Virus record (IMG/VR): IMGVR_UViG_3300018080_000684
Coordinates: 1-20,525 of that record
Source of the DNA: a virus
DNA length: 20,525 nucleotides
Direction: 5' to 3' (one strand)
The notes below the pieces were generated by a model. That model had not been told where the DNA came from. It saw only the letters and a list, made by a program, of their open reading frames with translations, and ran no database searches. The number at the start of each line of letters is the position of its first letter. Position 1 is the stretch's first letter. Positions 7,193 to 13,947 of this stretch are shown in pieces. The position numbers were made by a program, and so were the translations under genes.

Positions 7193-7260
7193 AATAATTA
7201 TCCATACGTATAATACCTAAAGAGGTACTACGTATATCGTTATCCGTATGGATAATTATT
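7193..7260. repeat. Perfect 16-bp inverted repeat with internal palindromes (operator-like)
   Basis: AATAATTATCCATACG (7193-7208) and CGTATGGATAATTATT (7245-7260) are exact reverse complements. The 36-base centre holds a second dyad (TACCT AAAG AGGTA) and two copies of TACGTATA (7205-7212, 7229-7236). It lies just after the stop of the ribbon-helix-helix-like gene and has no U-tract on the leftward strand, so it looks more like an operator or a cruciform site than a terminator. Confidence 0.65.
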
Positions 7261-7497: not shown

Positions 7498-7509
7498 CAC
7501 TATCTCCTT

Positions 7510-7525
7510 GTTAGTTTGTTAGTTT
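7510..7525 (-). repeat. Two AAACTAAC units next to the RBS of the 7267-7497 gene
   Basis: Read leftward, two exact AAACTAAC units occur here and are followed by AAGGAG and the ATG at 7497. They are in inverse orientation to the nine-unit array at 7604-7675, so a transcript covering both could fold one onto the other and hide the ribosome binding site. Confidence 0.8.
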
Positions 7526-7531
7526 GTTAAA

Positions 7532-7560
7532 TTGTCAAATCTTTTGTGCGTCCGTAAAAT
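7532..7560 (+). promoter_or_regulatory. Rightward sigma-70-type promoter
   Basis: TTGTCA (7532-7537), a 17-base spacer, then TAAAAT (7555-7560): five of six matches at each hexamer with ideal spacing. Transcription would start near 7567 and run through the repeat array to hairpins at 7762-7803 and 7847-7878. No gene lies downstream on this strand. Strong by consensus, not tested. Confidence 0.5.
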
Positions 7561-7603
7561 CTAAATACCTAAATCGGAATTTAGCTTCATAAACTTTAGC
7601 ATA

Positions 7604-7675
7604 AAACTAACAAACTAACAAACTAACAAACTAACAAACTAACAAACTAACAAACTAACAAACTAACAAACTAAC
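7604..7675 (+). repeat. Nine perfect tandem copies of AAACTAAC
   Basis: Seventy-two bases made of nine identical 8-base units with no substitutions, ending at AAGCTTTT. Perfect identity implies recent expansion or active slippage. Units of eight bases do not keep a reading frame, which agrees with the absence of coding here. Confidence 0.97.
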
Positions 7676-7761
7676 AAGCTTTTACCTTTTTTTTTTCTTA
7701 GAGCTAAAGTTTTTAAGAGTTAATCCGATAGAGAACTCAGGTATCACATTCTCCTGTTTTT

Positions 7762-12433: not shown

Positions 12434-12643
12434 ATGTTTATGCCTTGGTGGGTTCTAATAGCCCTTATACCTTTAATCCTGCTTATTGTTTTTTCTTTTA
12501 AATTTGATAGTGGTAGCCCAGTAGATATGTATGCTTCAGATAGAACTTTATATTACGTTATTGTGGGTCCTATAGCGATAATTTTTTCACTAACAATAAT
12601 GCTTGGGTATTGGGTTGGCCGTGCCAAAGGATGGATTCAATGA
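12434..12643 (+). CDS. Small two-span membrane protein
   Basis: A 69-residue protein with two hydrophobic segments, residues about 5-23 (WVLIALIPLILLIVFSF) and about 41-62 (YYVIVGPIAIIFSLTIMLGYW). The loop between them is mostly polar (KFDSGSPVDMYASDRT) and the tail is basic (GRAKGWIQ). AGGAG lies seven bases before the ATG; ATG 12440 is also possible. Its stop overlaps the first Ser-X mini-gene by ATGA. It lies in the early/replication operon rather than with lysis genes, so I do not call it a holin. A membrane-acting takeover or exclusion role is possible but unsupported. Confidence 0.6.
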   Translation: MFMPWWVLIALIPLILLIVFSFKFDSGSPVDMYASDRTLYYVIVGPIAIIFSLTIMLGYWVGRAKGWIQ

Positions 12644-12732
12644 ACGCAGCGATATTACGTTTAGGCTATGAAAACTCAGGGTCATGGTCAGGATCAGGAT
12701 CAGGATCAGGATCACGGTCAGGGTCATGGTAA
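12640..12732 (+). CDS. Ser-X dipeptide repeat mini-protein, short copy
   Basis: A 30-residue product: leader MNAAILRLGYEN, then nine Ser-X dipeptides in which X is Gly, Trp or Arg. The repeat is coded by nine hexamers with an invariant TCA codon (12676-12729). Its ATG overlaps the upstream stop as ATGA, exactly as in the longer copy at 13112, which supports this frame. Leader differences between the two copies are two silent changes and two conservative replacements (Ala/Thr, Leu/Ile), again as expected of coding. It is followed by a 38-base spacer with the ribosome binding site of the next gene, also duplicated. Function unknown; there are no Cys, signal peptide or membrane segments. Confidence 0.55.
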   Translation: MNAAILRLGYENSGSWSGSGSGSGSRSGSW

Positions 12733-12764
12733 AAATATCAATTTGATTTAAAAGGAGAAAAGAA

Positions 12765-13115
12765 ATGATAGATTTAAACGATTTAACTTTAGGGCAAGTA
12801 AATCAGATCGGGAAATTATGTGGAAACTCAAAATCAACAAAACATCCCTACAAAATAGGTCAGGCGTATTTAATAAGGACCGTCACTTGCCATTGGGTCG
12901 GTAAACTTGAAGCTGTATATGAACAAGAAATAGTTTTGTCTGAAGCTTCATGGATCGCCAACACCGGAAGATTCAATGAGTGCCTTAAAGACTCAATGGA
13001 GAATTTAAATAACGCCGAAATTGAGCCTGTATTTAAAGGCAACACAATCTTAGGTAGAGCTGCATTTATCGATGTAAACGAATGGCATCATAAGTTACCG
13101 AGAGAAGTAAAATGA
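12765..13115 (+). CDS. Conserved phage/bacterial protein of unknown function
   Basis: A 116-residue protein preceded by AAAAGGAGAAAAGAA. After a helical start (MIDLNDLTLGQVNQIGKLCG) comes a compact core reading HPYKIGQAYLIRTVTCHWVGKL, then EIVLSEASWIANTGRFNECL and a C-terminal [15 protein letters not shown]-like ending. I recognise the pattern T-V-T-x-x-x-x-G-x-L ... A-x-W-I-A-x-T-G-R-F from uncharacterised proteins found in many phages and bacteria. They look like small beta-barrel domains. It is flanked on both sides by the Ser-X repeat mini-genes and overlaps the downstream one by ATGA, so its expression is tied to them. Confidence 0.75.
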   Translation: MIDLNDLTLGQVNQIGKLCGNSKSTKHPYKIGQAYLIRTVTCHWVGKLEAVYEQEIVLSEASWIANTGRFNECLKDSMENLNNAEIEPVFKGNTILGRAAFIDVNEWHHKLPREVK

Positions 13116-13330
13116 ATGCAACGATATTACGTATAGGTTATGAAAACTCACGGTCATGGTCATGGTCAGGGTCAGGGTCAGGGTCATGGTCACGGGTGGG
13201 GTCATGGTCATGGTCAGGATCAGGATCAAGATCACGATCATGGTCATGGTCAGGATCAGGATCACGGTCAGGGTCATGGTCAGGGTCATGGTCAGGGTCA
13301 TGGTCATGGTCAGTGTCATGGTCATGGTAA
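13112..13330 (+). CDS. Ser-X dipeptide repeat mini-protein, long copy
   Basis: A 72-residue product: leader [12 protein letters not shown] followed by about 30 dipeptides, nearly all Ser-X with X being Gly, Trp or Arg, and two interruptions (a V-G and a V in place of the pattern). The DNA is a 180-base hexamer array (13148-13327) with invariant TCA in this frame. CATGAT, which would make a TGA stop here, does not occur even though CAT and GAT codons of the other frame both do. The ATG is coupled to the previous stop (ATGA). The array is over three times as long as in the first copy, showing expansion or contraction in whole hexamers that preserves frame. Function unknown. Confidence 0.55.
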
Positions 13331-13362
13331 AAATATCAATTTGATTTAAAAGGAGAAAAAAA

Positions 13363-13947
13363 ATGATATGTGAAATCGGACAAGAAGGTTTAATATTTAC
13401 AGCACTTTCTAAGACAGAAGAATACGCAGTCAAAGCCTGGATAGCTGAAGGGTGTAAAATTGAGGGAATCGAAAAGCTCGCTAAAACAGAAATTAATTTG
13501 GATGAAGATAAAGAGATTGAGGACGTTCAAACTAAAAAAGAAGAAAAAAAATTTGATGAAAGAGAGACAATCAAGAAAAAACTTGATGCAATGGGTATAA
13601 AATATAATTCTAGATTAAGGCTCCCCGCGCTTAAAGAACTTTTAGAAAAATCTATAGAGGTTCCTAACGACAAATCAAAATCTAAAGAAATTAAAATCGT
13701 TAAAGAATCAAACGTACAACTTAAAAAAGACGGTTTTTTAGAAGATGATTTTTTAAATGAAGCAGTAGAGGAAAAAACCAAAATCTATACGGTAGATGAT
13801 GTAAGAAGCAGCTTAACTGCTTTCGCTAAAAAATACGGCGCTGTAGATACAAAAACCCTATTGTCCAAATATAATGCGCAAAAGGTTTCAGATCTTAAAG
13901 CCGATAATTATCAGGGTATATGCGAAGATTGTGAGGCTAAATTATGA
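13363..13947 (+). CDS. HeH/SAP-like domain protein of the replication operon
   Basis: A 194-residue protein with AAAAGGAGAAAAAAA before its ATG. Residues about 69-98 (TIKKKLDAMGIKYNSRLRL, then PALKELLEK) match the HeH/LEM-like helix-extension-helix pattern found in phage proteins, a small DNA- or protein-binding module. The centre is Lys/Glu-rich and likely disordered. The C-terminal ~55 residues (TVDDVRSSLTAFAKKYG, then VSDLKADNYQGICEDCEAK) look like a helical domain often seen at the end of phage recombination and single-strand-binding proteins. It overlaps the DUF2800 gene by ATGA. I infer an accessory role in replication or recombination. Confidence 0.6.
   Translation: MICEIGQEGLIFTALSKTEEYAVKAWIAEGCKIEGIEKLAKTEINLDEDKEIEDVQTKKEEKKFDERETIKKKLDAMGIKYNSRLRLPALKELLEKSIEVPNDKSKSKEIKIVKESNVQLKKDGFLEDDFLNEAVEEKTKIYTVDDVRSSLTAFAKKYGAVDTKTLLSKYNAQKVSDLKADNYQGICEDCEAKL

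Follow-up and report, generated by a model that had tools for sequence, protein, structure and literature searches.

The window, i.e. the whole 20.5 kb stretch that was analysed, is an IMG/VR virus contig with terminase, head, Prim-Pol and SNF2 helicase genes, and with further genes for a DUF2800 exonuclease, an Enc34-type SSB and DNA polymerase A. It carries two mini-genes for alternating serine dipeptides (Ser-X), placed on either side of a gene for a small protein with a predicted barrel fold (Table 1). The small hydrophobic protein encoded upstream of them belongs to no confident family in Pfam or PHROG. Its stop codon overlaps the start of mini-gene 1 as ATGA (12640-12643), and the same overlap joins the barrel gene to mini-gene 2 (13112-13115).

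Table 1. Features of the window around the two Ser-X mini-genes.
Feature	Position	Strand	Remarks
Small hydrophobic protein, 69 aa, probable membrane protein	12434..12643	+	upstream of mini-gene 1
Ser-X mini-gene 1, 30 codons	12640..12732	+	(S-G/W/R) repeats after the leader MNAAILRLGYEN
Hexamer array TCA-NGR of mini-gene 1	12676..12729	+	TRF, 6-nt lag identity
Spacer with Shine-Dalgarno-like AAAAGGAG from 12750, serving the Sm-like gene	12733..12764	+	
Small beta-barrel protein of class A with predicted Sm-like fold, 116 aa; partner of the repeat peptide	12765..13115	+	
Ser-X mini-gene 2, 72 codons	13112..13330	+	follows the Sm-like gene at once, its usual place, and overlaps it as ATGA
Hexamer array of mini-gene 2, 30 units	13148..13327	+	TRF, 6-nt lag identity
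Spacer with AAAAGGAG from 13348, serving the next gene	13331..13362	+	

Both mini-genes begin with the leader MNA(A/T)ILR(L/I)GYEN followed by (Ser-X)n, X being Gly, Trp or Arg. The leaders (MNAAILRLGYEN in mini-gene 1) differ at 4 of 36 bases, two of the differences being silent and two conservative, in line with the initial annotation, which had called them silent or conservative. Identity at a lag of 6 nt reaches 87% in array 1 and 82% in array 2, no other 181-nt stretch in the window exceeding 43%, and the TRF scores are 74 and 173 respectively. Periodicity, conservation and frame rule out chance low complexity. The initial annotation was right that the mini-genes are real, in frame and ATGA-coupled, and its codon counts were confirmed; it had noted the absence of the stop-creating CATGAT, and no TCATGA is present in frame. 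TCA is not invariant as it had claimed: GTG replaces it at one Ser position of array 2 (codon 29, 13196-13198) and also stands at one X position. The nearly identical 38-nt stretch that it described after each stop codon, containing AAAAGGAG, was found again: the second spacer together with the first 6 bases of the next gene matches the first spacer stretch at 37 of 38 positions, i.e. one base differs. Mini-gene 1 is an extra copy with no barrel gene before it.

Two other elements lie elsewhere in the window. An intergenic octamer array (AAACTAAC, 9.2 copies) occupies 7604-7677, and an inverted arm of TTGTTAGT units is found at 7507-7535 (29-nt arms, 93% complementary, 114 nt apart); array and arm together (7507-7678) are a candidate origin or regulatory element. 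Between two minus-strand genes, at 7193-7260, a 21-nt inverted repeat with a 26-nt loop may be terminator-like or a putative protein-binding site.

The exact degenerate DNA of the leader had no match in viral contigs, and peptide patterns made from the single window protein found no relatives; alignments were needed. Comparison with GenBank phages revealed no nucleotide similarity, a PDB sequence search with the barrel profiles gave no match, and tblastn of the window protein returned one clear relative (MW202573). Viral contigs were scanned for six TCANGR units, which yielded at least 120 stretches, many of them the same kind of mini-gene. This hexamer search also caught plain Ser-Gly/Ser-Arg stretches of unrelated proteins, which were removed by requiring Trp. 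Upstream of the arrays a recurring gene ends where the mini-gene starts. It is of two types: class A, resembling the product of 12765-13115 in the window (AAWIADTGRF...LPRSQK-stop), and class B, with the pattern YTGKLVGVND...IESFGIVK-stop; the two are homologous by hhalign (E 6e-9). Homologues of both classes were then gathered by protein pattern (for class A from genome and viral contigs), with the repeats left aside, and the sequence downstream of each was read.

The initial annotation had asked whether the neighbour of the mini-genes co-occurs with them, and this proved key. A Ser-X gene lies behind the class A barrel gene in 87 of 88 loci, mostly with the ATGA overlap; one locus (L136) is without a repeat gene, the sequence of another (L213) ends after the leader, and in a few class A loci the array is degenerate or begins tens of bases farther downstream. 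For class B the figure is 75 of 77 evaluable loci, the two exceptions (L268 and L269) having identical flanks and no repeat gene. Taking both classes together, the repeat gene follows the Sm-like gene immediately, at a constant position, in 162 of the 165 loci that could be evaluated, with fewer independent cases than loci counted since some loci are near-duplicates. The start offset is -4 in 44/80 and -1 in 15/80 class A loci, and -4 in 29/58 and -1 in 6/58 class B loci. A strict Shine-Dalgarno motif is present within the end of the barrel gene in 39% of class A loci (10% in shuffles) and in 17% of class B loci (9% in shuffles). Conversely, when repeats were picked by pattern, the barrel motif was found upstream of 38 of 47 Ser-X and 47 of 56 Gly-X repeats, for a background of about 6%.

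Repeat genes that have no adjacent barrel gene are often tandem and multi-copy. Twelve contigs carry arrays lacking an adjacent Sm-like gene: nine of them encode a barrel protein elsewhere, and neither family was found in the other three. The window is partly such a case, with an extra copy before the barrel gene and the standard copy after it. L354, L303, L010, L022 and L027 have coupled repeat genes in tandem, three to five per contig, every one with a leader of its own. Neighbouring genes include RecT, RecE, helicase, exonuclease, polymerase and methylase genes, i.e. functions of recombination and replication.

Viral proteins with similar predicted folds include DUF6948 (PF22253), and a scan for Gly-[Tyr/Ser/Asp] hexamer arrays found DUF6948-like and related barrel genes upstream of them. 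DUF6948 itself is class C: class C proteins score 110, 85, 83 and 67 bits with the DUF6948 Pfam model (cut-off 27). The window protein (12765-13112) falls below this model and has no Pfam match. Profile comparison links class A/B to class C (E 8.5e-7); class B compared directly with class C reaches a probability of only 28%, the link running through class A. A protein search for DUF6948 gave 80 loci, 79 of them with a Gly-X repeat gene behind. In 73 of these 79 the repeat gene starts exactly 13 nt before the stop codon ends (-13), and its ATG is cut out of a conserved Trp codon context, e.g. GTATGG. Most contigs hold one class, DUF6948 being found also in 5/46 class A and 1/36 class B contigs. 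The pair is present in cultured phages (Iodobacter phage PhiPLPE, Pectobacterium phage Abuela, Vibrio phage IKEMa6-1 and Chlorobiaceae phage CV-1-33); the repeat gene is entered there as a hypothetical protein, is missing from the annotation (PhiPLPE) or has been annotated in a different frame (CV-1-33). In one locus, L326, the DUF6948 domain and the Gly-X repeat form one continuous ORF, a natural in-frame fusion. Altogether the homologues of the barrel proteins (at least 413, at least 156 and at least 573) come from more than 1,100 viral contigs, and the module is rare in cellular genomes (2/294 and 1/294 in a sample of one phylum). The window is one instance of a phage two-gene module that is widespread in hundreds of environmental phages.

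Gly-X repeats also occur in other contexts. Two barrel-like families, VVDRGWIFAGDV... (L324, L341, L344, L348, L364, L391) and VLDRGFVYVG... (L320, L322, L395, L410), precede Gly-X genes in 10 of 10 loci; two examples scanned gave no significant Pfam match. In L313, L361, L363, L368, L394 and L422 the repeat makes up the N-terminal portion of a larger protein, whose conserved C-terminal domain (CYIARG..FAHGETLREA..WHH.LTGSC..GR) has no Pfam match; these fusions come from several phage contigs and one Monoglobus plasmid. Another C-terminal domain without a Pfam match, ALHAT..PPKW.GERWWIVAL.GEV, follows the repeat in L359, L400 and L447. Plain Gly-Tyr stretches in tail-type proteins (L342, L403) were judged unrelated.

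The fold of the barrel protein was examined on predicted models. The AlphaFold model of class B (pLDDT 94.6) superposes on the archaeal Sm protein 1i8f with Z 10.7 and an rmsd of 1.6 over 65 residues, and among the matches listed, all those from VIA-align and nearly all those from Foldseek are Sm/LSm proteins. That of the window protein (pLDDT 84.6) superposes on 1i8f_C with Z 9.6 and an rmsd of 1.5 over 64 residues, its top Foldseek matches being mostly Sm/LSm. Both models thus have the Sm fold, a small five-stranded barrel. At E 0.1 the Pfam LSM/Sm profile matched none of 16 class A and 19 class B proteins, and no Hfq profile appeared among the Pfam matches of the barrel proteins. Accordingly we speak of an Sm-like fold and not of a family member, the Sm assignment coming entirely from predicted structure.

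To describe the peptide we surveyed the codons of 140 distinct Ser-X arrays binned by GC. The Ser codon is TCT, TCG, TCA, AGC or AGT depending on lineage, mostly with one codon per array (e.g. TCG in the arrays behind the same barrel gene in a Manatee Spring phage), and the X codons are NGG. From GC below 0.36 to above 0.6 the Gly:Arg:Trp proportions stay at about 1:1:1, and across the same range the Arg codon switches, AGG falling from 0.33 to 0.04 and CGG rising from 0.01 to 0.27. Codons that shift under a held composition are what selection on amino-acid composition predicts, and the codon data thus indicate that the peptide itself is conserved. This codon switching rules out a pure DNA or RNA element as the main reading. 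Within arrays, purifying selection on the Ser codons is weak (120 synonymous and 164 non-synonymous single changes, about 0.68 per site); single units being little constrained, it is apparently through turnover of whole units that composition is maintained. Intact arrays of close relatives differ in length by multiples of 6 nt (e.g. 6, 30, 36, 48, 60, 84), which bears out the length turnover proposed in the initial annotation. As a side observation, TCC is nearly absent from the Ser-X arrays (L131-L298) and makes up 5-20% of nearby Ser codons; TCCNGG would create CCNGG sites and self-complementary repeats.

Ser-X peptides are basic in 118/118 cases, and Gly-X peptides are not net positive in 95%. 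Both types combine a small spacer residue (Ser/Gly) with an aromatic (Trp/Tyr) and a charged one (Arg/Asp), and the order of the X residues is close to random.

That the module is a real translated pair with an Sm-like barrel appears very probable; what the data show directly is the gene layout and its conservation, the constraint on the repeat at protein level, the length changes in 6-nt steps, the predicted fold and the one natural fusion. As to what it does, the explanation that we favour as a whole, a split Sm/Hfq-like core with a disordered multivalent tail, is about evenly poised between right and wrong. Gene 1 would give a small protein of predicted Sm/LSm fold; because the start of gene 2 lies within gene 1 or at its end, ribosomes finishing the first probably reinitiate on the second, to give the low-complexity alternating-dipeptide peptide. 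Early in infection the Sm-like protein would most likely form a ring to bind RNA (or single-stranded DNA). The coupled peptide, on a separate chain, would serve as its disordered multivalent tail, perhaps joining the ring by way of the short leader that is conserved in classes A and B; it would modulate the binding of nucleic acid or promote the formation of larger clusters, as Hfq C-terminal tails act. The L326 fusion and the recombination and replication genes nearby speak for this reading. In E. coli the disordered acidic tail of Hfq competes with RNA for the core and displaces RNA from it (PMC5606850), and in A. baumannii the GGFGGQ repeats of the Hfq tail alter RNA affinity (PMC11617691). 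By this analogy, ring formation, RNA binding, core-tail contact and clustering may be envisaged, and the chance that an RNA-binding core-and-tail mechanism operates falls slightly short of even. Some gut phages fuse the repeat to an unrelated C-terminal domain, which counts against the core-tail model, as do the weak purifying selection within arrays, the repeat genes that lie apart from any Sm-like gene and the lack of a match to the LSM or Hfq profiles. Since Ser-X peptides are basic and Gly-X peptides acidic, one simple electrostatic mechanism cannot serve both. It is doubtful, though conceivable, that a ring-forming core that binds RNA and a sticker-and-spacer peptide translated apart from it make an RNA-protein condensate early in infection, with gain and loss of hexamers tuning the length; that sister lineages, sometimes the same phage, hold basic (Ser-Arg/Trp) and acidic (Gly-Tyr/Asp) versions for such a condensate is an equally tentative part of it.

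The same observations may be read at the level of RNA. The repeat mRNA, with GG every six bases in both array types, would then be a multivalent platform for the Sm-like ring, in autoregulation or as a sponge, and the peptide a by-product. Repeated RNA motifs are known targets of Sm and Hfq proteins, Arg is nearly always AGG or CGG even in AT-rich genomes, and selection on single units is weak. However, switching of Ser between TCN and AGY destroys any shared nucleotide motif, the Gly:Arg:Trp proportions hold while codons shift with GC, and the array continues the reading frame of a conserved leader and start codon and is once naturally fused to a protein. The NGG preference, moreover, is also expected from unit duplication and single first-base changes around the only Trp codon. 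We consider this reading unlikely. A structural peptide, the repeats self-assembling into beta-rich fibres or a coat (of virion or host cell) and the barrel acting as chaperone or nucleator, would agree with the silk-like composition and with the strict alternation, which puts Ser/Gly on one face of a strand and the other residues opposite. But the genes nearby serve mainly recombination and replication and not the virion, and the near-random order of X residues does not favour it; we hold it quite improbable.

The small overlapping gene pair and its basic, Trp-rich Ser-X peptides also recall a toxin-antitoxin or membrane-active pair, in which the Trp/Arg-rich peptide would be a toxin or lysis-type peptide and the barrel its antidote; such a composition occurs in some antimicrobial peptides. 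The sister module nevertheless makes acidic Tyr-rich Gly-X peptides at the same position, the two parts are fused in frame in L326, and PADLOC matched seven proteins to none of its defence-system families, which makes this explanation very unlikely. The initial annotation had seen a mobile or amplifying cassette inserting between operon genes, on the strength of the near-identical leader and spacer of the two window copies, and tandem copies do exist in other contigs. Amplification as tandem copies does stand, for a minority of phages, this one included. Insertion between operon genes does not: the repeat gene keeps its single place behind the Sm-like gene, extra copies mostly adjoin each other instead of being scattered, and no mobility gene was seen alongside. 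As a general explanation a selfish cassette is largely refuted, with hardly any probability left to it, so that the interpretation first given to the locus is supported in part.

In the open-licence literature we found no description of the module, of the repeat gene or of DUF6948, which agrees with the initial view of a product unlike any named protein. We could find no described kind of system to accommodate an obligate phage pair in which an Sm-like barrel goes with a dipeptide-repeat peptide translated on its own, and the pair would be a new phage gene system. Among the more than 1,100 contigs, nearly all the loci inspected carry the repeat gene. The pair offers a natural experiment on the evolution of disordered repeat tails, in which one amino-acid recipe persists through free change of codons and length, and gives a context to DUF6948, in cultured phages included. 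The fold is not new, and the proposed working principle resembles Hfq.

Among known proteins, those of DUF6948, phage proteins of unknown function, are class C of the module itself, but the window protein falls short of the Pfam model and goes with a basic Ser-X repeat in place of the acidic Gly-X one. PDB 3by7, which we take to be an Sm-like protein of putative cyanophage origin, is likewise viral and Sm-like; we know of no repeat partner for it, and it is absent among the best 50 structure matches listed. The repeat-derived low-complexity regions of prokaryotic and phage proteins are comparable in origin, but a survey found aromatic residues and Arg heavily under-represented in them (PMC6821194), whereas these are a main component of the module peptides. 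Sm/LSm proteins and Hfq with disordered tails share with the module the predicted Sm fold and a low-complexity Gly/Ser partner with aromatic and charged residues. They differ in that the tail is here a separate, translationally coupled gene, that the barrel matches no Pfam LSM or Hfq profile, that the pair is encoded by phages, and that its oligomer and RNA binding are putative. The tail of Hfq is part of the same chain, whereas here it is a separate overlapping gene in all loci but L326.
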